A stretch of 64,000 bases of DNA from Myxococcota bacterium. Its GTDB lineage: Bacteria; Myxococcota_A; UBA796. The notes under the pieces are model-generated. The model worked only from the letters and a program-made list of their open reading frames with translations, ran no database searches and was not told the origin of the DNA. The translations under genes were made by a program, and so were the position numbers. Shown here in pieces: positions 11,493 through 25,942 of this stretch (the first letter of the stretch is position 1; every line of letters begins with the position of its first letter). The stretch spans positions 89,858-153,857 of the forward strand of contig JAQXDW010000024.1 of assembly GCA_029251165.1 (NCBI GenBank), given 5' to 3'.

Positions 11493-12950
11493 CTACAGCG
11501 CCCCGCCTGCTGCGAGCTCTTGGAGACGCCCCAGGACCGGACGAGGCTCGCGGGCCTTGGTGTCCTTGTCGAGCGCGTTGAGGCCGAACCGAAGGTCGAA
11601 GCCATGGTTCCACTCGTAGTTATCCACCCACGACCAGTACAGGTAGCCGCGCACATCGGCCCCCCGCGCCATCGCCTCAGACAGCGCCGTGAGGTGCCCC
11701 TCCAAGACCTCGACCCCCTGCTCCTCGACGTACGGCGTGCCGTTCTCGGTGATGATAATCGGGAGCTCGTACGACGCCGCGATGTCCACAACAGCCCCCA
11801 GCCCCTCAGGATACGGATCCCAGGAGAACTCAGGGTAGAAGTCAAACACCGGAATGTCGGGGAGAAGCTGAACCCAGGAGCGTACGACGACCTGGTTGTA
11901 GTAATTCACCCCAAGCCAGTCCAGCCGGCTCGCCAGCTCCGGGCGGTTTGTGTCGAAGACACCGTCGAGGTCCTCGTCCCAGTCGCCCGTGGTCAAGGCC
12001 TCCAGGAACAGCCGGTGGTAGAGGTGGTCCATGTGCACCGCAGCCGCAGCGTCTTCCTCGCTGTCGGTCTCCGGGGTGATCGCGACCATGTTCAGCACGA
12101 TGCCGATCGCTGCGGCGTCGCCGTCACCGTCGGCGTCGATGGTGTCGTTGGCGACCACCGCGTCGTACATCACCGCGTGGCCCTCGATCTGGTTGCGCAG
12201 GGTCGCGACGACCTGAGATGAGGCCATCAGCAGCCCCGGCGGCGCGCTGCGATCCTCACCCGGCAGCAGGTAGCCAGACAGGGTCGTGGCGAACGGCTCG
12301 TTGAGGGTCGCCCACTGATCGACCTCGCCACCAAACTCCATGGCCGCAAAGCCCGAGTACAGTGCAATCAGCGGCAGGATTCGCTCCCCATCCACCCACC
12401 CGCTGGCGGTGCAGCCCTCCGGATCGTTGTGGCATGCCACCCCGTCGTGGACCCACAGCGGGAGCGTGTAGTGGTTGAGCGTGACCAGCGGCGTGATGTT
12501 GTTGACCTCCAGGGCCGCGAACATCTCGTGGTAGCGAGCGACTGCTCCCGCGTCTGCGTAGTCCGCCAGCTCTGCGACCGTCGTGGCTGCGGCTGCGGCA
12601 CCATCAGGGAACAGCCGGGACCACTCCAGCGACATCCGGTAGCTGTTCAGCCCCGCAGCAGCCATCGCCGCGGCATCGTCCTCGAACAGCTCCCACATTC
12701 CCGGCCCGTTGCCGACCGACTCGCCAGAGACGAACAGGGTGTCGTCTGCGATGATCTGATCGGTGGTGACCCACTGGTACCAGTCGCTGGCGGTGTCGTC
12801 GCACGTCGCGGCGTCCCAGGTCGGGCAGCCCATGTCCACCTGAAAGCCTGCCGTAGCACTCCCCCAGAGAAAGGAGTCCGGAAAGGGGGTCGTGGCAGAG
12901 TCGTCGCCGCGATCGGTACAGGCACTGAGGAGGGGCAGAAGAATCAGCAT
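11493..12950 (-). CDS. Glycoside hydrolase family 1 lipoprotein
   Basis: A 485-residue predicted lipoprotein (MLILLPLLSAC, Cys at 11) with a full GH1 (beta/alpha)8 barrel. WGSATAGFQVD is the typical N-terminal strand; SYRMSLEWSRLFP, TLNHYTLPLWV, TLNEPFA (acid/base Glu), LDWLGVNYY, IITENGT (nucleophile Glu) and YLYWSWVDNYEWNHGF follow in family order. It is expected to hydrolyse beta-glucosides, beta-galactosides or similar sugars outside the cytoplasm. Family members are usually about 450 residues and cytosolic in bacteria, so the lipoprotein signal is the unusual part. Some extra acidic loops (TPETDSEEDAA, DGDGDAAA) could bind Ca2+. Confidence 0.92.
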   Translation of the reverse strand: MLILLPLLSACTDRGDDSATTPFPDSFLWGSATAGFQVDMGCPTWDAATCDDTASDWYQWVTTDQIIADDTLFVSGESVGNGPGMWELFEDDAAAMAAAGLNSYRMSLEWSRLFPDGAAAAATTVAELADYADAGAVARYHEMFAALEVNNITPLVTLNHYTLPLWVHDGVACHNDPEGCTASGWVDGERILPLIALYSGFAAMEFGGEVDQWATLNEPFATTLSGYLLPGEDRSAPPGLLMASSQVVATLRNQIEGHAVMYDAVVANDTIDADGDGDAAAIGIVLNMVAITPETDSEEDAAAAVHMDHLYHRLFLEALTTGDWDEDLDGVFDTNRPELASRLDWLGVNYYNQVVVRSWVQLLPDIPVFDFYPEFSWDPYPEGLGAVVDIAASYELPIIITENGTPYVEEQGVEVLEGHLTALSEAMARGADVRGYLYWSWVDNYEWNHGFDLRFGLNALDKDTKAREPRPVLGRLQELAAGGAL

Positions 12951-14231: not shown

Positions 14232-15242
14232 CTACAGCCTCACGACCACCTTCCCGAAGTGCTGTCCAGACGCCATGTGCTCCAGCGCCGCGCGAGTCGC
14301 CCCCAGCTCAAACGTCGTGTCCACCACAGGCCGCAGTCCGCCAGCGGAGATCGCCCGGTTCATGGCCTCAAACCCGTCTCGGTTCCCCACAAACACCCCC
14401 TGAACCCGCACCTGCCGCATCAGAATCGACTCCAGCCGAACCTGACTCAGCCCACCAGACAGCACCCCAATCAGCCCGATCGTGCCGCCGGGCCGCACCG
14501 CTCGGAGCGACTGCGCCAGGGTGTCTGCGCCGCCGACCTCCACCACCAGGTCGACCCCGCGCTTCCCCGTCAGTCCCCGCGCCACATCCCCCCACCGGGG
14601 CTCGGTGCGGTAGTTGATCCCGTGGTCCGCTCCCAGTGCTGCGACCCGCTCCAGCTTCTCGTCGGAGCTCGACGTCATGATGACCTGAGCACCGTGGAGC
14701 TTCGCCAGGGCCAGCGCAGACAGGGCCACCCCGCCGGTCCCCTGGATCAGCACCACGTCTCCAGCCTTGATTCCGCCGAGGGTGACCAGGGCGCTCCAGG
14801 CTGTCAGCATCGCGCAGGGCAGGCAGGCGGCCTCGGCATCCGTGAGGTGTCCTGGCGGAACCACCACCGAGTGTGCCGGCACCACGACAACCTCCGCGAG
14901 CATGCCATCCAGCGGACCGCCTCGGGTCTGTCGGGTCACGCCAGGAGGCGGCGCGCCGCTCAGCCAGCCCTCAGCAAACAGCGGGCAGACCCGTTCTCCC
15001 ATCGCCACCCGCGTCACCCCCTCGCCCACCGCAACCACCACGCCCACGCCGTCGCTGGCAGGGATCAGCGGGAGGGGCTGTCGGGGATTGTACTGACCGC
15101 GAACCATCAGCAGGTCGCGGTAATTCAGGCTCACGGCCCGCACCCCGATGGCGACCTCACCCGGACCCGGAGTGGGTCGGGGGCGCTCCACAACGTGGAG
15201 GTTCTCGATGCCAAATTGTCCGCTCAGCTCGACGACGTTCAT
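14232..15242 (-). CDS. Zinc-independent MDR-family alcohol dehydrogenase/quinone oxidoreductase
   Basis: A 336-residue cytosolic NAD(P)H-dependent oxidoreductase of the medium-chain dehydrogenase family. The GroES-like N-terminal half contains VSLNYRDLLMVRGQY and ASDGVGVVVAVGEGV; the Rossmann half contains VLIQGTGGVALSALALAKLHGAQVIMT, with GTGGVA as the dinucleotide loop. The structural-zinc Cys cluster is absent, so it is not a classic zinc alcohol dehydrogenase. I chose the ATG at 15242 (MNVVELSGQFGIENLHVVE), which gives the usual family start; upstream codons to 15404 look non-coding. Substrate unknown. Confidence 0.9.
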   Translation of the reverse strand: MNVVELSGQFGIENLHVVERPRPTPGPGEVAIGVRAVSLNYRDLLMVRGQYNPRQPLPLIPASDGVGVVVAVGEGVTRVAMGERVCPLFAEGWLSGAPPPGVTRQTRGGPLDGMLAEVVVVPAHSVVVPPGHLTDAEAACLPCAMLTAWSALVTLGGIKAGDVVLIQGTGGVALSALALAKLHGAQVIMTSSSDEKLERVAALGADHGINYRTEPRWGDVARGLTGKRGVDLVVEVGGADTLAQSLRAVRPGGTIGLIGVLSGGLSQVRLESILMRQVRVQGVFVGNRDGFEAMNRAISAGGLRPVVDTTFELGATRAALEHMASGQHFGKVVVRL

Positions 15243-15676
15243 GGAGTGCTCCGAAAAATCCTTGCAGGTGGTGTCTTGAGGGGTGGTGTCGACCATTGCC
15301 GACACGACGTCTGGATCCCAGGAGAATTTACCGCCTGCGGCAGCTGCCGCGCAGTCAGCCGGCACATCCGCCTCGTCAGACCGACGCGCCACCCGCTCAG
15401 CCATCCAGCTCGCTTCCCGCGCAGGACACCAGGCACAGGATGCCGGGCGGGTACCCTCCGCAGTGGTCCGCCACCGCGCAACGCCCCTGCCGGCCCTCTA
15501 ATCGGTGTGAGCTTCGAGTCGATCGAGGCAGTCTCGACCGTAGACCCAGGCCCTATACAGGGTCCGCATGGCACCGGATATCAGACCCAAGCCCTTGGTT
15601 TAACGCACTGAGATCCCCCGCCGTGCATTGCTCCACTCACTGCATGCGCGATACACTGCGCGCCCCTGGAGGTCTC
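15243..15676. other. 434-base intergenic region between divergent genes
   Basis: It lies between the oxidoreductase (minus) and the lipoprotein operon (plus). I see no convincing ORF or RNA gene. It holds a probable promoter for the plus-strand operon at its right end. Confidence 0.6.
15628..15657 (+). promoter_or_regulatory. Candidate sigma-70-like promoter of the lipoprotein operon
   Basis: TTGCTC (15628-15633) and TACACT (15652-15657) are separated by 18 bases. They lie upstream of a GGAGG ribosome binding site (15668-15672) and the ATG at 15677. The -35 match is weak. Confidence 0.4.
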
Positions 15677-17629: not shown

Positions 17630-18940
17630 TCACCGGCTGCTCTCTCTCAGGAATTCGGCAGACAGCGCCCGTGCGCGGCTGACATCCACGAGTCCCCCCT
17701 GAGACAACAGGTGGAGCGCGGTGAGGCCTGCGGAGACGCCTCCCCCGTCCGTCCGGCGCTGCCGCATGGTCGCGACCACCGCATCACCGATCAAGCCGTC
17801 GGCGTGTGTGAGCAGCTCCAGGAGTCCGCCGACGTCACCGCGCCTCAGGTATCGCTCCGACATCCCAGCGGCCGCACCATGCCGGACATGGCGATCGGGG
17901 GTGGCCAGCAGCGCCGCAGCCTCATGCGCGGTGCCATGGCTCAGCAGGTGCCACCCCCAGGCCATCGCGGCAGTCCGCCGAAGCCGCACGCCGCCAGTAG
18001 CCATAACTTCTGGAAGGCCAGCCCCGTCGAGGGACTCCCCAGCGCGCGCGAGCCCGAGCAGCGCAGCGACCGCCTCATGCTGAACCATCGGTGCAGCGTC
18101 GGTCAGCGCAGCTCCCAGCGCCGAGACACTCTCGGAGAGTCCGGCGCCCGTTCGGGCCAGGGCGGCAAAGGTCTGGGCGGCCTGGTGCCGGATGTCGGAC
18201 ACCGGATCGGAGAGGCAGGCCCGGATCGGCGCATGGTCCACCTGCAATGGGTCGCCGTCCTCACAGGCGGAGGCCAGTGCCAGCAGGGCACCCAGTCGAT
18301 GCGCCGGGCGCGCGGAGGCCAGGACGGCGACGAGCCGCGCGGGCTGAAGGCGCGACAGCAGCCACGCGGCGTGCTGACCCACATCCGGTGCAGGATCTTC
18401 CAGGAGTCCATCGAGGATTCCGATCAGCACCGCCCCATCGAGCCCCTCCCCTACCGCAGAGACGGCGGCTTCGCAGGCCCCAGACCGGACCTCAGGACGT
18501 GCATCCACCAGCAGCCCGGCGGCGCGACGATCCCCCGCCAGCAGCCAGCCTCGGATCAGCAGCCCGGCAGCTCCGCGCGAGCGCACCACGTCGCCCCCCA
18601 GCGCAGCCTCCAGCATCACCAAGATCTCCGAGGTGTCCGGACCACCGAGGGCACCTCGCAGGCACTCCGTGGCGATCAGCGCCAGCCGGACGTCTCCCAG
18701 CGCAGCGACCAGTCCAGCCGCGGCGTCCCCCGGCGCACCGCCAGTCCGACTCCAGATCCCCAGCACCGCAACCGCCCCCTCGCGGACCGTGCGGTCTCCG
18801 TCGGACAGCGCCTGCCCCAGCGCCCCAAGCGCAGCGGTGAGATCCGTGGTCGCTTCTGCGGCCTCCAGCAGCGCTGCGATCGCCTCCTGGCGAGTCGCAA
18901 TCGTTCGGCTGCCCAGGGCAGCAGCAAGGTGAGCAATCAA
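17630..18940 (-). CDS. HEAT-repeat protein
   Basis: A 436-residue all-helical cytosolic protein built of about a dozen HEAT/PBS-like repeats, for example DGDRTVREGAVAVLGIW, DPVSDIRHQAAQTFAALA, DAAPMVQHEAVAALLGLA and TPDRHVRHGAAAGMSERYL. No catalytic motif. Such solenoids are protein-interaction scaffolds. The start is TTG at 18940, supported by a GGAGG box four bases upstream. It is divergent from the Pup-like/PafA-like pair and shares a 105-base promoter region with it, so a functional link is possible but not shown. Confidence 0.85.
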   Translation of the reverse strand: MIAHLAAALGSRTIATRQEAIAALLEAAEATTDLTAALGALGQALSDGDRTVREGAVAVLGIWSRTGGAPGDAAAGLVAALGDVRLALIATECLRGALGGPDTSEILVMLEAALGGDVVRSRGAAGLLIRGWLLAGDRRAAGLLVDARPEVRSGACEAAVSAVGEGLDGAVLIGILDGLLEDPAPDVGQHAAWLLSRLQPARLVAVLASARPAHRLGALLALASACEDGDPLQVDHAPIRACLSDPVSDIRHQAAQTFAALARTGAGLSESVSALGAALTDAAPMVQHEAVAALLGLARAGESLDGAGLPEVMATGGVRLRRTAAMAWGWHLLSHGTAHEAAALLATPDRHVRHGAAAGMSERYLRRGDVGGLLELLTHADGLIGDAVVATMRQRRTDGGGVSAGLTALHLLSQGGLVDVSRARALSAEFLRESSR

Positions 18941-19034: not shown

Positions 19035-19040
19035 AGGAGA
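19035..19040 (+). promoter_or_regulatory. Ribosome binding site of the Pup-like ORF
   Basis: AGGAGA lies five bases before the ATG at 19046. It is one of the better Shine-Dalgarno matches in the window, and it is the main reason to accept the 48-codon ORF as translated. Confidence 0.7.
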
Positions 19041-19045
19041 CTCGA

Positions 19046-19192
19046 ATGGCCGTCCCCCAGCCCCGTCAGCAGCCCACCAGCAGCCCCGAACGTCAGCGAC
19101 TTCGTGAGATAGCCCGTCGGGTTCGTCAGGATGCTCAGCGCCAGCCTGAGCAGTACCTCAAGGACTCTGAGGTGCCCCACGGCGGGGAGTGA
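19046..19192 (+). CDS. Pup/UBact-like small protein modifier ending in Gly-Gly-Glu
   Basis: A 48-residue ORF just upstream of, and overlapping, a PafA/Dop-family gene. Seen: ATG with an AGGAGA box five bases upstream; a Pro/Gln/Ser-rich, probably disordered N-terminus (residues 1-15); a charged helix-forming middle (RQRLREIARRVRQDAQ, residues 16-31); and a C-terminus HGGE followed by TGA. Known: Pup (60-64 residues) and UBact are small, largely disordered modifiers encoded next to their ligase; they end in Gly-Gly-Gln/Glu or Gly-Glu, and the C-terminal Glu side chain is joined to target Lys. Inference: this is the modifier of the adjacent ligase. Ending in Glu, it would need no deamidation by Dop. 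It is shorter than Pup and I cannot show homology beyond the tail and context. Confidence 0.75.
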   Translation: MAVPQPRQQPTSSPERQRLREIARRVRQDAQRQPEQYLKDSEVPHGGE

Positions 19193-20870
19193 CCTCAGCA
19201 CGCCCGGCATCCTCCAGCGCTTGATCGGGGCAGAGACCGAGTACGCCATCCACTTCGCACCGTACGGCGACGGAGCACGCCTCACCGATCCAGTGCTGTA
19301 CACCGCACTCCGGGATCGGCTGATGGAGCTGGTGACGACCAGCGAGGGGCGGGGGGCGTTTGCTCGGATGCGACAGAAGCGCTTCCTGGAGAACGGCGGG
19401 GCGATCGACTACGAGTCTGGTGACCCGTCACAGCTCACCGGGCTGATCGAGGCGTCGACCCCCGAGTGCCGTGGGCCGGGCCAGCTGCTGCTGTACCAGC
19501 GCGCACAGGAGCGGCTGCTGTCTGCGGCGCTCAGCACGCTGCGGCTGCCCGGCACCCTGTCGCTGCGAAAGAACTGCCGAGATGCTGCCGGCAACATCTA
19601 CGGCGCTCAGGAGAGCTACTCCGTCCCGGTCGCCAGGGGCTGGCGGCTGGCGGCACTGCGCGTGGGGCTGGTGGGGGTGGGGCTGGTGCTGCTGCCCTGC
19701 GCGGTCGTGTGTCAGCTGCTGATCTACGCCATGCTCGTCGTGCTCATCCTCGCGCTCGTCATGCTCCTGCCCGCCGAGATCATCCGAGGCACGATCCGGG
19801 GGCAGGACACAGAGGAGCTGTTCACCTGGCTGGAGCCGGCCCTGCGTCCGCTGAACATCCTGGAGACCTGGATCCGCCGAGGCTGCCTTGTGCTGCCTGG
19901 CAGCATGTTCATCCTCTTGATGCGCGCCCTCGCCTTCCACCCTCACCGCACCGCTGCCGTCGGGTTTCTCGCCAGCCGACAGGTGTTCAGCGGTGCCGGC
20001 ACCTTGCGACACGACGGGCACCTGGCGCTCTCCGAGAAGGCCAGCGCAGTGCAGCGGGTGTTTCCGCTTCGGATGTGGGGCAAGCAGCGCTACATCTTCG
20101 ATCCGGCCAACCTCCACAAGGATCTCCTCGGCCCCAGCTTCGGAGAGAGCCGGCGGCTCCTGCGGCTGCTGCGTCCGGTGTGGCGGCTACAGGTCGGGAT
20201 GTCCGACGCCAACATGTGCCAGGTCGCCGAGTACCTCAAGATCGGCACCACCGTCCTGGTGTTCGATGCTGCGGAGGCCGGCGCACTCCAGGACGCCCCC
20301 CGGCTCGTCCAGCCCGCAGATGCCGCCCGAACCATCGCTGCAGAGGGGCTGTCTGCGGAGGTCGCCCTGCGCGGAGGCGGGCGCATCACCGCCCTGGCGC
20401 TGCAGCGGTGGTACCAGGAGCGCATCGCGTCATGGCTCGCGGCATCCAGCACGGTTCCGATGGAGGCCCACGATGTTGTCCGGCGCTGGGACGACGTGCT
20501 CACCCGCCTGGAAGACGATCCTGCCTCTCTGGTCGGCGAGGTGGACTGGATCACCAAGCAGGCGCTGCTGGAGGAAGCCGGGGCAGACCTCTCCGAGGCG
20601 GCCCGCAAGGTCATCGACCTGCGCTACCATGAACTCGGCAGCGGCTACTTCGCCTGGCTCGATGAGGCCGGACTCACCGTTCGCATGCTCTCGGACGCCG
20701 ACATCGACGCCGCAGTTCGCGCCGCTCCAGACGACACCCCAGCCACGCAGCGTGGCCGACTCATCCGAGAGTCTGGTCCCGAGCTGAAGGTGGACTGGGA
20801 GGAGGCCAGCCTTGGCCGGACGGTCATCTCGTTCGCCGAGCACACCCGCCGTCGTCGCACGGACGACTGA
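19131..20870 (+). CDS. PafA/Dop-family (Pup ligase-like) protein with membrane insertion
   Basis: A glutamine-synthetase-fold amidoligase related to the Pup ligase PafA and depupylase Dop. Family blocks in order: LIGAETEYAI (ATP/Mg Glu pair), LENGGAIDYE, STPEC, KNCRDAAGNIYGAQESY (PafA: KNNTDSAGNSYGCHENY), FLASRQVFSGAG, RLQVGMSDANMCQVAEYLKIGT, DWITKQ, IDLRYHELGSGYF, DDTPATQRGRLI and a C-terminal VDW...RTV block. Between QESY and FLASRQ, where PafA has about 24 residues, it has about 115. That segment includes two adjacent membrane segments (about 174-216) and a third hydrophobic stretch (about 252-270). It probably ligates the upstream GGE peptide to proteins at the membrane. The start is uncertain: the ATG at 19131 overlaps the modifier ORF by 62 bases without a good ribosome site; a TTG at 19221, just before the ETE motif, is an alternative. 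The closest match by eye is PafA rather than Dop. Confidence 0.88.
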   Translation: MLSASLSSTSRTLRCPTAGSDLSTPGILQRLIGAETEYAIHFAPYGDGARLTDPVLYTALRDRLMELVTTSEGRGAFARMRQKRFLENGGAIDYESGDPSQLTGLIEASTPECRGPGQLLLYQRAQERLLSAALSTLRLPGTLSLRKNCRDAAGNIYGAQESYSVPVARGWRLAALRVGLVGVGLVLLPCAVVCQLLIYAMLVVLILALVMLLPAEIIRGTIRGQDTEELFTWLEPALRPLNILETWIRRGCLVLPGSMFILLMRALAFHPHRTAAVGFLASRQVFSGAGTLRHDGHLALSEKASAVQRVFPLRMWGKQRYIFDPANLHKDLLGPSFGESRRLLRLLRPVWRLQVGMSDANMCQVAEYLKIGTTVLVFDAAEAGALQDAPRLVQPADAARTIAAEGLSAEVALRGGGRITALALQRWYQERIASWLAASSTVPMEAHDVVRRWDDVLTRLEDDPASLVGEVDWITKQALLEEAGADLSEAARKVIDLRYHELGSGYFAWLDEAGLTVRMLSDADIDAAVRAAPDDTPATQRGRLIRESGPELKVDWEEASLGRTVISFAEHTRRRRTDD

Positions 20871-20938: not shown

Positions 20939-23500
20939 TTACTCGACGGTGACGGCGGGAAGCGGCGCCGTCCAGCCGTCGCCGTCGACGTCGACGCGGA
21001 TCGCCGCGGCCATCGCCCAAGGGAGGTTGCTGTAGACGATGCTGCTGGTGCTGTCAGACTCTGCCACCAGCACGATCACCGCGTCGGCCTCCAGGTCCAG
21101 CGCCAGGGTGGTGCGCAGTCGCTCGGGGTACTCGCCGGTCACCGGGATCTCTTCGCCGCGCTCACCGTCGATGTAGACCACCAGTCGATCCACCGGCACC
21201 CAGCTCGACGTCCACACCGCGACCTCCAGCTCGACCGCTCCGGTGAGGGTCTGACCCGGTGCCCACTGCCCGCCGGCGGTGACCTCCAGGTAGGGACCGG
21301 TGGAGACGACGGTGGCCTGCGCGGCCATCGCCGCCGTGAGTACAGCATCCGTTACGGTCGCGCCATCGGTGTACAGGAATGTAACGCTCTCTCCGACACC
21401 GCCGCGATAGCCGTGGCTGTCGCTGACCCCGACCGGCGTGGGGGTCAGCCCACGGGCGGTCATGTCGAGATAGGCAGCGAACGCCTCGTCGTGCTCGCTG
21501 TCGTTGATGACCTCCATCGCGTCGAAGTCTGCCGACCAGTAGTCGGCGTCCTGAACGACGCCCCGGCTGTAGCCGGCAGCCGAGAGCATCCCAGAGTCAA
21601 ACGGGTGGTTGAGCTGGATGACCCCATCGCCGACCTGCGCGCGGATGGCCTCGAACAGCTCAGGGGTCTGCTGGACCTGCTGCCACCACCGCAGGGCGCC
21701 GTTGTTTGGCTCACCGATGACCGCGCTGAGGGGGTAGACATTGAGGTGACCACGCAGGACCGGGCTGACCTCGTCCGCGACGATGCTGGAGAGCCAGTCC
21801 TCTATTCCCAGCGCCGAGAGGAGCGGGCGGTAGTCAGAGACGTGATCGTGGTCGGTCCCGAAGTGAACATCGACGCCCGCGCCGGCATGGGTGAGCAGCC
21901 GGTGACTCATCGGAATGTTTGCATCTCCGGAGGGCGCAGCGTGGCTGTGCGGATCGATGATAGCCACCGTGGGAGAGTACGACTCGTCGAGAGTTAGCGT
22001 TATATCAACAGCTTTTCCACTGCCTATGGAAAACGACTCGATGTAGGGCTCGAACCGCAGACCGCGGTGTGCGGTCAGGGTGTAGTCACCCGGCTCCAGC
22101 GGGAGGCTCAGGGGGCCTGCGGCGAGCCACCCCTCAGCCATCAGCCCCGAGGGCCGACCTGGGACAATTCGGCTGTCTGAGGAGACGGAATCACCCGAGG
22201 CAAAGGCGATCTGGACCGTCGCGGGCCGTCCGTCTGCTGCCTGCACCGTGAGCAAGCCCGGCGCGGTGAGGCTCAGGGCTGTGTCGTCGGTGGCCGGAAG
22301 AATCTCCGAGATGCCATAGCCCTCCGCGAACGGAATCGGCGCAGCCCCCGCCGACATGCTCAGCAGGGCCTCCTCTCGGAGCGCCTCCGTCGCGTAGGAA
22401 GAGTACCAGCCAGCGCCCTCGGCGATGTCGAGGTGCTTGCCCTCTCCTCGACCCGTGGCGACCGCATCGTAGCTCCCGAGCGGAGCCTGGAGCGACCACG
22501 CGCCGTCGGCATCGGTGCGGGTGAGGAGAACCGGAGCGCCGCTGTCGTCGAGGATGTGAACCCGAGCGCCGGCGACCGGCTGTGCGCCATCGGTGACGCG
22601 CCCGGCGAGGGTCTGGGTGCTCTGTCCGCTGCGGGCATACCAGGCATCCGTGAGCTCGGAGAGGTCCTGGGCGACACCGATGGTGCGCCGCCAGGTCACC
22701 GTGTCGCCCTCGCTGAGGGCCTGGGAGCCCTGGGACGCCGTCACGATCGGGCCGAGGGCAGAGAGGAGCTGCTGGGCAGCGCTGGTGACGAACGCCTCGT
22801 CCTCAGGGAAGATCGCCATGGCGACCTCGCCGCGTCGACCGATCAGGGCCGGCCAGTCGCCTTCTCCCTCCAGCCCCTCTCCAGCGCCCCAGGGGATCGC
22901 GGCATCCGTGGACAGGAGCAGAAGATCTCCCTGCTCGATGACAGTCTCGGAGTCCTGCCAGGTCAGGGTGGTCTCCATGAGCAGCAGCGGACTGTCAGGC
23001 TCCAGGGTGTAGCGGGTGGAGATCCAGACCCCCAGCTCCGGAACCAGTGCATCGCTCTCCAGGCTGCCGGTGAGCAGCTGCATCGGTGCGCCCGGTCCCT
23101 CCGCGACCACCACCGCCGGGCCACCGCTGATGCCGTCACTGACCACTGTGACGCTCTCCGCCTTCATCAGACGCCCCAGGCCGACCATCACCCCGAGCTC
23201 ATCGATCACGTCCCGTCCCGGGACTCCCTCGGGACGAATCGCATCCGCATCGATGATGCCGCCGCCGTAGTCGATGTAGTAGCTCCCGGGACGGGTGCCC
23301 TGGATGACGAACTGTGCGCGGCTGTTGTAGAGCTTGATGTCGCCGGCCTGTCCCTCCGCAGCGATGCCGCCAAACAGGGCCGCTTCGTCCGTGATGACCC
23401 CGGCGCGAGACTCTCCGTCACTCAGCGAAGAGACGAGGTCGACGGGATCGGCCTCGACGGGGACAGGATCGGGCTTGCAGGCGAGGAGAAGAAGCAGCAT
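20939..23500 (-). CDS. CehA/McbA-like PHP-type metallohydrolase lipoprotein
   Basis: An 853-residue predicted lipoprotein; the ATG at 23500 gives MLLLLLAC with the Cys at residue 8. The N-terminal 300 residues are beta-rich. A carboxypeptidase-regulatory-like (Ig-like) domain follows (LAGRVTDGAQPVAGARVHI), then a second beta domain, then a PHP-type metal-dependent hydrolase at about 540-770 with IIDPHSHAAPSGD (HxH), VHFGTDHDH, VIQLNHPF and VGVSDSHGY, all metal ligands of the CehA/McbA group. The C-terminal beta domain contains VVYIDGERGEEIPV. Known relatives hydrolyse phosphate, phosphonate or carbamate esters. Here it would act in the periplasm or at the cell surface on an unknown ester. It converges with the PafA-like gene. 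Confidence 0.88.
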   Translation of the reverse strand: MLLLLLACKPDPVPVEADPVDLVSSLSDGESRAGVITDEAALFGGIAAEGQAGDIKLYNSRAQFVIQGTRPGSYYIDYGGGIIDADAIRPEGVPGRDVIDELGVMVGLGRLMKAESVTVVSDGISGGPAVVVAEGPGAPMQLLTGSLESDALVPELGVWISTRYTLEPDSPLLLMETTLTWQDSETVIEQGDLLLLSTDAAIPWGAGEGLEGEGDWPALIGRRGEVAMAIFPEDEAFVTSAAQQLLSALGPIVTASQGSQALSEGDTVTWRRTIGVAQDLSELTDAWYARSGQSTQTLAGRVTDGAQPVAGARVHILDDSGAPVLLTRTDADGAWSLQAPLGSYDAVATGRGEGKHLDIAEGAGWYSSYATEALREEALLSMSAGAAPIPFAEGYGISEILPATDDTALSLTAPGLLTVQAADGRPATVQIAFASGDSVSSDSRIVPGRPSGLMAEGWLAAGPLSLPLEPGDYTLTAHRGLRFEPYIESFSIGSGKAVDITLTLDESYSPTVAIIDPHSHAAPSGDANIPMSHRLLTHAGAGVDVHFGTDHDHVSDYRPLLSALGIEDWLSSIVADEVSPVLRGHLNVYPLSAVIGEPNNGALRWWQQVQQTPELFEAIRAQVGDGVIQLNHPFDSGMLSAAGYSRGVVQDADYWSADFDAMEVINDSEHDEAFAAYLDMTARGLTPTPVGVSDSHGYRGGVGESVTFLYTDGATVTDAVLTAAMAAQATVVSTGPYLEVTAGGQWAPGQTLTGAVELEVAVWTSSWVPVDRLVVYIDGERGEEIPVTGEYPERLRTTLALDLEADAVIVLVAESDSTSSIVYSNLPWAMAAAIRVDVDGDGWTAPLPAVTVE

Positions 23501-24277
23501 CCCGGCAGGGTAGCAGGACGGGGCGTAGACAGCACTCTCCGTATCCCCGCGATCCCCTGCGCGCAGCCTGGAGGGCAGGTCGCTCTCGACCGTGTCGCAC
23601 CGGTCAGCGAGCGGTTGATTCGTGGCACCGTGGAGGTTGCTGCTGGCGCTGGGAGCAGGTGCGGCGCGGTAAGGCTTCAGGCTCCTTGAGGCGGCGAAGA
23701 CCATCGCTCAGGGCTTGTCTTCCCATCACGGTTAACGAACCCGGACATGGGCGCATCAATGACCGCCCCACAGCACCCATGAATCGGATGATGAAAACAT
23801 AACAAATGTTACACGTTAACTATTGAGCAAAAATTCCATCCGCAGCCTTGTCATCGCCAGACCGCACGCAACCATAACGCGTAACATCACGCAAAGGTGC
23901 GGGGCGCGACTCGCTGCCGCGTCCTGCGCTATCGCGGGTGCTGTAGAGGACCACGTCGACGACCGCACCAGACATCGAGAGGCCCTCGCTGCCGTCGACC
24001 GTATCAGCCGTCACACGCTTCATCTTGACCCGGACCACCTGACCCCGAGCCGCTCCGGGCCCCTGCATCCGCGATGGGGCCATCCGCGCTCGGCGCACTG
24101 TCGGAATCGGGGGGAGGCTGCGCGCATCGCTCAGATCGATGGGGATTCCGCTGGAGACCGTGCAGCCTTCGCTGCCACCGGCGTTGGTGAGGTTAGACCC
24201 GTCTCGATCACATGAGGCCGTGTTGACGATCCTGATCGTCCGATGGGCTAAGCTCAGTCCTCTCTCGGAGGTTTGAG
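23501..24277. other. 777-base region without a convincing gene
   Basis: It contains an AT-rich patch (about 23780-23835) with the inverted repeat TAACA-AA-TGTTA (23800-23811), and a weak minus-strand ORF described separately. Either could mark a regulatory site or gene decay. Confidence 0.5.
23820..24254 (-). pseudogene. Doubtful ORF, possible gene remnant
   Basis: An open minus-strand reading frame with some protein-like stretches (SNLTNAGGSEGCTVSSGIPI, VTADTVDGSEGLSMSGAVVD) but no start codon that avoids overlap with the plus-strand gene at 24278, no ribosome site and no recognised family. It could be a decayed gene or chance. The plus strand here also has a weak ORF that looks less protein-like. 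Confidence 0.2.
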
Positions 24278-24613: not shown

Positions 24614-25114
24614 GTGAGCCCTGACGTGCCAGTCATCCGCGACGCGGTGCCCGCCGATGCCGCTGCAATCGCAGAGATCTACACCGAGTCGATCGTTCAG
24701 GGCGACGCCACCATGGACGAGACGCCGTGGACCCCCGCGCAGGTCACCGGGATGATGGCCGCGCACAGCGCGCGAGAGGGCTTCATCGTGCTCGAGCACG
24801 GCGGGGAGGTCCTGGGCTGGGGGGTGTACAAGCGCTACAGCCCCCGAACGGGCTACCGCTTTGCCGGCGAGACCGCGACCTACCTGCGGCGAGACAAGAC
24901 CGGAGCAGGGCATGGCTCGCGGCTCAAGCGGGCGCTGATTGAGCGGTGCCGGGCAAGCGGCTACCGACACCTCGTGGCGCGTGTGTTCGCAGACAACGCC
25001 GCCAGCGTCGCCTACAACCAGCGCCTCGGCTACACGGTCGTCGGCACGCAGCGGCAGATCGGCTTCCGCAGCGGACGCTGGGTGGACGTCACCATCCTCC
25101 AGCTCATCCTCTGA
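24614..25114 (+). CDS. GNAT N-acetyltransferase, phosphinothricin acetyltransferase-like
   Basis: A 166-residue cytosolic GNAT enzyme with a GTG start. It begins VIRDAVPADAAAIAEIYTESI, the typical PAT/MddA opening, keeps the acetyl-CoA loop (RRDKTGAGHGSRLKRALIE, the Q/R-x-x-G-x-G/A site) and ends with NAASVAYNQRLGYTVVGTQRQIGFRSGRWVDVTILQ, typical of amino-acid N-acyltransferases that act on L-methionine sulfoximine or phosphinothricin. Substrate specificity is not certain. It is translated from the same transcript as the small membrane protein. Confidence 0.9.
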   Translation: MSPDVPVIRDAVPADAAAIAEIYTESIVQGDATMDETPWTPAQVTGMMAAHSAREGFIVLEHGGEVLGWGVYKRYSPRTGYRFAGETATYLRRDKTGAGHGSRLKRALIERCRASGYRHLVARVFADNAASVAYNQRLGYTVVGTQRQIGFRSGRWVDVTILQLIL

Positions 25115-25222
25115 CACCCGACAGCCGCACCACTGACTGCGCCGGATCTCACTGGGGAAGTCGCCATCGGTGCGGTCTCAGCAGGTGTCGTGATACAACG
25201 CCTGCTCAATCCGAGGATCACG

Positions 25223-25942
25223 ATGCTCTTCTTTCTGGCCCTGACCGCATGCGACGACAACACCGCCGAGACGCCGGAGGAGAAGCCTCCCGCTGAGGAG
25301 ATCACGCCCGCGCCGCCCGAGCCGCCCACGCCGCCAGTCGTCACCCCGGATGAGCCCCCTGCGGAGCCGATCCCCGAGGCGCTGGTCCCTCCGGCCAGCC
25401 ACCCCGCATCTCCCGACAGCTACACGATCACCTGGGAGACCACCAAGGGCGCGTTCGACACCACCTGCACCCGCTCCTGGGCCCCCAACGGCGCGGACCG
25501 CCTCTACCACCTCGTGCAGTCTGGCTTCTACGAGGACGTCGCCTACTTCCGCGTGATCGACGGCTTCATGGCGCAGTTCGGTCTGCACGGAACCCCCGCA
25601 GTGACCAAGCAGTGGAAGGAGGCGAGCATCGACGACGATCCGGCCGGGCAGTCCAACAAGCTGGGCTACCTCACCTTCGCCACCGCCGGCCCCAACACCC
25701 GCACCACCCAGCTGTTCATCAACTTCGGCGACAACGCCCGGCTCGATGAGAGCGGCTTCACCCCGGTCTGCAAGGTCGACGGCAAGGGCATGGACACCGT
25801 GAATGCGCTGTACAAGGGCTACGGCGAGGGGGCTCCCCGGGGCCGTGGTCCCAGCCAGGGCCTGATCCACAAGCGCGGCAACGAGTACCTCCGCGAGGCA
25901 TTCCCGGAGCTGGACTACATCAAGACGGCCACGATCAAGTAG
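25223..25942 (+). CDS. Cyclophilin-type peptidyl-prolyl isomerase lipoprotein
   Basis: A 239-residue lipoprotein: MLFFLALTAC (Cys at 10), a long Pro/Glu linker (residues about 12-60), then a cyclophilin domain. Core motifs: FYEDVAYFRVIDGFMAQFG (catalytic Arg in FRV), NKLGYLTFATAGPNTRTTQLFINFGDN and SGFTPVCKV, as in bacterial PpiA/PpiB. It should speed proline isomerisation during folding of surface proteins. I chose the ATG at 25223 because GAGGA precedes it by five bases; a GTG at 25190 would add a basic n-region (IQRLLNPR) and is the alternative. Confidence 0.9.
   Translation: MLFFLALTACDDNTAETPEEKPPAEEITPAPPEPPTPPVVTPDEPPAEPIPEALVPPASHPASPDSYTITWETTKGAFDTTCTRSWAPNGADRLYHLVQSGFYEDVAYFRVIDGFMAQFGLHGTPAVTKQWKEASIDDDPAGQSNKLGYLTFATAGPNTRTTQLFINFGDNARLDESGFTPVCKVDGKGMDTVNALYKGYGEGAPRGRGPSQGLIHKRGNEYLREAFPELDYIKTATIK

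Follow-up and report, generated by a model that had tools for sequence, protein, structure and literature searches.

A short Gly-Gly-Glu-ending peptide and a single Pup-ligase-family enzyme with a predicted membrane insert form a conserved gene pair in Myxococcota

The gene pair at the locus

The window analysed here is a 64,000-nucleotide stretch of contig JAQXDW010000024.1 from a Myxococcota bacterium. It carries a 48-residue open reading frame (ORF) that ends in Gly-Gly-Glu and, downstream on the same strand, an ORF that matches the Pfam family Pup_ligase (PF03136) with an E-value of 1.5e-68. The short ORF translates as MAVPQPRQQPTSSPERQRLREIARRVRQDAQRQPEQYLKDSEVPHGGE before its stop codon. 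A Shine-Dalgarno-like AGGAGA (19035..19040, forward strand) is located 5 nucleotides upstream of its ATG, and purine-rich stretches resembling this box, as judged by eye, precede several of the homologous peptide genes, not all. An earlier note, made from the letters of the window alone, had described this ORF with its C-terminal HGGE and its AGGAGA box, and the sequence confirms both. The features of the pair are as follows.

19046..19192, forward strand: putative Pup-like modifier gene, 48 amino acids, C-terminus SEVPHGGE
19221..20870, forward strand: single enzyme of the Pup-ligase family (PF03136), 549 amino acids counted from TTG 19221, by Pfam and homology
19227..19241, forward strand: GxExE motif (G3, E5, E7) of core strand 1, from alignments
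19413..19415, forward strand: E65, a Glu where PafA of Corynebacterium glutamicum has its active-site Asp (D64), from alignments
19662..19796, forward strand: long hydrophobic helix, residues 148-192, from family hydropathy (113 sequences), hydropathy peaks and the structure model
19872..19925, forward strand: second hydrophobic stretch, residues 218-234, from family hydropathy (helix 204-237 in the model)

Conservation of the pair across loci and genomes

Relatives of the ligase were gathered from a contig collection (three: L002, L003 and L004) and from 377 Myxococcota genomes, 102 of which have any ligase match. The group around the window's enzyme, clade A, occurs in 14 of the 377 genomes; it was cut at an E-value gap from 2.6e-59 to 1.2e-47, chosen after the list had been seen, and the ligase tree agrees with this cut for the rows it includes. 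L003 and genome G070 represent the same contig and are counted once. This gives 15 distinct loci with upstream sequence and a sixteenth (G256) that ends at a contig edge.

A short GGE-ending ORF lies immediately 5' of the clade-A ligase in 14 of the 15 loci, with 15–53 nucleotides between the peptide stop codon and the first common ligase codon, and the related C-termini follow the consensus YLRETxVPxGGE. In the remaining locus (L057, genome G296) a membrane-protein-like ORF precedes the ligase, which is seen nowhere else among the loci, and the peptide gene is found on another contig (L090, G296:C343; MSAAQDKKIIPLKPLIEPTPAEKALAEIKADARKDAEKYLRETVVPEGGE). Among the 5887 stop codons on both strands of these 15 loci, 14 are preceded by Gly-Gly-Glu codons. 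These 14 coincide exactly with the peptide ORFs, each in a different locus, on the plus strand and just before the ligase, and none of the other 5873 stops has this feature. The zone 60 to 10 nucleotides upstream of the 15 ligases holds 16 plus-strand stops. A search with a profile of 39 peptides (A3) places the peptide in 13 of the 377 genomes, each of them one of the 14 that have the ligase (Fisher p 3.5e-23). Eleven of the 13 already contribute to the profile and their recovery is expected; the real test is the absence elsewhere, with at most 18 candidates scored per genome, together with G070 and G296, the first of which has close relatives among the sequences of the profile. The peptide ORF has merely 48 codons, as a chance reading frame might. 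We reject that explanation and give it practically no weight, as such an ORF recurs at 14 of 15 loci, is matched by no other stop, and occurs in 13 of 14 genomes with the ligase against 0 of the 363 others.

The distances among peptides and among ligases correlate (r 0.78, n 14, G282 left out); the value drops to 0.70 without L004 and to 0.63 without L004 and G240, all uncorrected for shared ancestry. Judged from the sequences, the peptide and the ligase form a conserved two-gene module, and we are almost certain that the peptide and the adjacent ligase are partners. The earlier note had tied its proposal to a conserved GGE- or GGQ-ending ORF upstream of homologous ligases in relatives; a GGE-ending one is indeed found directly upstream, and it tracks the ligase across the 377 genomes. 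A modifier–ligase fusion made by frameshifting was also considered and rejected: the reading-frame offset from the peptide stop to the ligase varies among the loci, so that no single programmed shift fits them all.

The peptide family

A database search with the 14-row peptide profile A1 gives 44 proteins, the window's own included. All 44 end in GGE and none in GGQ, with the profile itself ending in GGE. The pattern Y-x5-VP-x-GGE is present in 37 of them, and the other seven belong to one subgroup ending WRAPGGGE (L004, P0155, P0157-P0159, P0162-P0164), with ends of AAAWVDRWRAPGGGE or near it. In L004 this diverged peptide is paired with the most distant clade-A ligase, and in that lineage peptide and ligase seem, from their sequences, to have changed together. 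Among the canonical Pups of eight other Myxococcota genomes, six end in GGE and two in GGQ.

The Pfam model for Pup (PF05639) matches none of the 14 A1 peptides and finds nothing above its cut-off in the 14 carrier genomes; all eight control genomes match. Against Pfam and NCBIfam together, no family matched more than one of the 14 peptides, and because no common model matches, the genes are called hypothetical where they are annotated at all. An hhalign comparison of 39 peptides with the eight Myxococcota Pups gives a probability of 1.1% and an E-value of 0.049 over 25 columns, with Tyr37 placed on the Phe of NAEEF. The predicted structure of the window's peptide has helices at residues 14-32 and 34-40 and a loose tail at 41-48 (predicted local distance difference test score, pLDDT, 75.1).

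The ligase

The window's ligase scores 142.3 bits with the PafA equivalog model TIGR03686 (cut-off 551.3) and 140.8 bits with the Dop equivalog model TIGR03688 (cut-off 492.3), far below the cut-off in both. As controls, a Myxococcota Dop reaches 566.5 with TIGR03688, and a 418-residue piece of a Myxococcota PafA reaches 530.8, just under the TIGR03686 cut-off. The enzyme is a diverged member of PF03136 with the PafA/Dop fold. Matches in the PDB beyond the glutamine-synthetase fold are weak. Its GxExE motif, named in the accessible text of PMC2588565, does not vary among 29 compared rows from clades A and B (a second clade described below), PafA and Dop, one row with a misplaced start being left out. 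In an alignment of 113 rows the three positions hold G in 107, E in 108 and E in 107, and the rest are gaps except for one Arg. E65 aligns with the Asp of 4b0t, and the active-site Asp of PafA (D64) and Dop (D94) is thus not found here. A Glu stands at this position in all 113 aligned relatives and in all 21 clade-A and clade-B rows, compared with Asp in the nine PafA and Dop rows.

Every clade-A member has a hydrophobic insert after the strand-4 motif, and PafA and Dop have none. Residues 148-192 are nearly free of charge across the family, Pro159 is kept in 88% of the sequences, and the model draws a helix over 140-193. The second hydrophobic stretch is followed by family positions rich in Arg and Lys (235, 240, 243 and 244). 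These features predict a membrane location for the ligase.

The first codon common to the ligase relatives is TTG 19221, which opens 'LIGAETEY' 28 nucleotides past the peptide stop. The longest ORF begins at ATG 19131. Position 19209, where the relatives usually start, reads ATC here, and the true start is left unsettled. The overlap of peptide and ligase start described in the earlier note thus holds for the longest ORF and not for the start given by homology. The window's ligase gene (19209-19223) is one of six clade-A genes, among 15, that have no ATG or GTG at the usual position (also L052, L053 and L058). The ligases of G059, G293 and G285 have no in-frame ATG, GTG or TTG upstream of the GxExE motif. 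These sequences hint at an unusual start codon or at coupled re-initiation.

Gene content of the carrier genomes

Each of the 14 carrier genomes shows one PF03136 gene; the extra matches in G059 fall in one ORF, and the gene of G282 is split over two contigs whose ends overlap by exactly 127 bases. The earlier note's suggestion that a Glu terminus would let one ligase suffice fits this single gene and the Glu at the end of all 44 peptides. The OB domain of the Mpa-type proteasomal ATPase (PF16450) was found in none of the 14 carriers (in three of them 150 of 172-200 candidates were scored), and the eight control genomes carry both it and the Pfam Pup. The pair of 20S proteasome subunits was not found in the 14 carriers either. 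Six have no PF00227 match and eight have one, and seven of these eight matches, when scanned, are HslV. Each of the eight controls has three PF00227 matches; G087, the control that was scanned, has the 20S beta and alpha subunits among its three.

An enzyme of this kind might also couple the peptide to the amino group of a membrane lipid rather than to proteins. Atg8/LC3 offers a parallel, being coupled to phosphatidylethanolamine. The hydrophobic insert in every member and the lack of a detected proteasome partner in the same genomes agree with this possibility, but the studied relatives use protein lysine, according to the part of PMC3511204 available, and we regard a lipid target as very unlikely.

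Neighbouring genes

No third gene family beside the pair is common to more than 4 of the 16 loci, some of which are short. The widest occurs in four (kinase-like by eye, in differing places) and the next in three (a divergent gene upstream in G116, G240 and G285). This bears on a further explanation, in which the peptide is the precursor of a ribosomally synthesized and post-translationally modified natural product, with a dedicated amide ligase that amidates its C-terminal Glu. A short peptide beside an ATP-dependent amide-ligase fold would suit such a pathway. We nevertheless consider it highly improbable, since no protease, exporter or tailoring enzyme is widely conserved beside the pair, and the conserved half of the peptide is predicted to form a helix plus tail, as in bound Pup.

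In the window, opposite-strand ORFs flank the pair: a HEAT-repeat protein (17630-18940, reverse strand) and a protein with a carboxypeptidase-regulatory-like domain (20939-23704, reverse strand). Further away, Pfam identifies a GNAT acetyltransferase (24614-25114, forward strand), a cyclophilin-type isomerase (25190-25942, forward strand), a zinc-type dehydrogenase (14232-15404, reverse strand) and a family 1 glycosyl hydrolase (11493-12950, reverse strand). Two other ORFs of the window scanned against Pfam have no match.

Position of the enzyme in the PafA/Dop family

In a tree of 29 proteins, with a midpoint root used for drawing only, PafA and Dop are sisters (support 100/100), clade B has 100/99, and clade A has 91/71, or 100/99 without the distant L004. 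On these sequences clade A lies outside the PafA/Dop pair. Because the root is a midpoint for drawing, the tree does not make clade A ancestral. One may speculate that the pair is a complete one-enzyme membrane tagging system from outside the PafA/Dop duplication. On this view Pup-like tagging had its beginning, or keeps its simple form, in a membrane signal, and proteasome, unfoldase and depupylase joined later in another branch; we hold this scenario to be possible but doubtful.

Clade B is a second PF03136 clade with a membrane insert (L063-L069, from G188, G302, G141, G196, G339, G343 and G074), and it shares with clade A the Glu at the Asp position. It differs from the type seen in the window in its gene surroundings. 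A gatC-like ORF lies downstream in five of the seven loci (NCBIfam gives gatC in the two scanned and gatA in one). No GGE- or GGQ-ending ORF was found upstream in the eight loci for which the start is mapped and upstream sequence exists, and the profile search found no modifier beside the seven loci. Nine of 12 clade-B genomes hold three PF03136 genes, which by score include PafA and Dop. Columns diagnostic for PafA versus Dop leave clade B undecided (10 PafA-like, 8 Dop-like, 68 neither). The clade-B protein may be a membrane enzyme acting on canonical Pup.

Relation to known pupylation systems

In 2008 Iyer, Burroughs and Aravind (PMC2588565) described Pup from Plesiocystis and Rhodopirellula, together with ligases carrying four transmembrane segments after strand 4. 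In the accessible text of that paper this type has no proteasome linkage, and modification of membrane-associated proteins is proposed for it. Plesiocystis is placed in the phylum Myxococcota. Its peptide PPSIR1_01919 belongs to the window's peptide family by profile search, and the window is therefore a member of the type predicted in 2008. The earlier note's view of a new Pup-type modifier is borne out as to a ligase-linked peptide ending in GGE, but the peptide is not wholly new.

The likeness to the type of PMC2588565, as its available part describes it, lies in a short modifier with terminal G[EQ], encoded next to a Pup ligase with a transmembrane insert after core strand 4 and with no proteasome genes nearby. 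A difference is also seen. That text links the pair to a membrane-protein gene, whereas here no third gene exceeds 4 of 16 loci. The ligase shows two hydrophobic blocks, which leave the number of membrane passes, four in that text, unsettled. Beyond the same text, the present analysis adds further lineages, a single enzyme, no ATPase or 20S genes found genome-wide, a constant GGE, the change of Asp to Glu and no conserved third gene. Lateral transfer of pupylation to Plesiocystis and Rhodopirellula has been suggested (PMC2837639, in the part available), and single PafA/Dop homologues have been noted in Planctomycetes (PMC7947786, likewise).

The canonical Pup-proteasome system (Pup, PafA, Dop, Mpa/ARC and 20S), present in other Myxococcota, has in common with the pair a short GGE/GGQ modifier, the enzyme fold and the Pfam family of the enzyme. 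Unlike the pair, it has two enzymes without a hydrophobic insert, 20S subunits and the ATPase in the same genomes, a Pup recognized by Pfam, the active-site Asp and an HPEY motif. Proteasome-free actinobacteria such as Corynebacterium also have pupylation genes without 20S genes, and C. glutamicum Pup ends in Glu. These bacteria keep the ATPase, however, and C. glutamicum keeps dop (PMC3511204, in the part available), and the type in the window shows neither. A literature search found no experiment on this peptide–ligase type; subscription papers and preprints were mostly outside its coverage.

Proposed function

Like Pup-like modifiers, the peptide is short, ends in GGE and is encoded beside a PafA-family gene (14 of 15 loci). 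The earlier note proposed that it is the substrate of the adjacent ligase, and this adjacency supports the proposal. We think it probable that the pair consists of a Pup-like modifier and a single membrane-anchored ligase that conjugates it to nearby proteins, where it would be a mark for regulation and not for the proteasome. The ligase would likely phosphorylate the C-terminal Glu of the peptide with ATP, and the peptide would then likely be joined to lysines of nearby proteins. A GGE terminus on all homologues found makes a deamidation step unnecessary. Judging from the sequences, the peptide is likely conjugated to proteins, and the mark is likely regulatory. Membrane proteins as targets, and a mark that does not lead to degradation, are reasoned guesses based on the anatomy of the enzyme and on the genes not found in the genomes. 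Without Dop, the mark would be either stable or removed by the same or some other enzyme.

Several points weigh against this proposal. Pfam, NCBIfam and the profile comparison do not show the peptide to be homologous in sequence to Pup, and the peptide model is weak (predicted template modelling score, pTM, 0.40). Ligation as the reaction is an inference. An invariant Glu in place of the active-site Asp could change the chemistry. The structure model has a single helix of 54 residues, more than one crossing of the membrane requires, and does not settle the topology. The carriers are drafts, estimated to be 67-97% complete, so one absence means little and fourteen agreeing mean more; the single PF00227 match of G285, which has a stop inside, is left without an identity. 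Finally, the best structural matches of the ligase are to Dop and not to PafA, and the diagnostic columns are undecided for clade A (4 PafA-like, 4 Dop-like, 75 neither), so that sequence alone does not say that the enzyme is a ligase. It could be Dop-like and remove or hydrolyse the peptide, a substrate that some other factor would make, or the reaction could run both ways in a single enzyme. However, no other PF03136 gene was found in any of the 14 carriers, so nothing known would make the conjugate. In the alignment clade A also has no counterpart of the long insert that Dop rows have before strand 2; this Dop-loop is in all Dop and in no PafA, according to the available part of PMC8599861. 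We consider the Dop-like alternative unlikely and favor conjugation by a membrane-anchored ligase.

If conjugation is confirmed, the pair would represent a ubiquitin-like bacterial tagging system reduced to two genes and tied to the membrane, with no degradation partner found. It would make the role of a Pup-like tag without a proteasome directly testable. As a relative lying outside the PafA/Dop pair, clade A also offers a way to ask whether the ligase or the hydrolase arose first.
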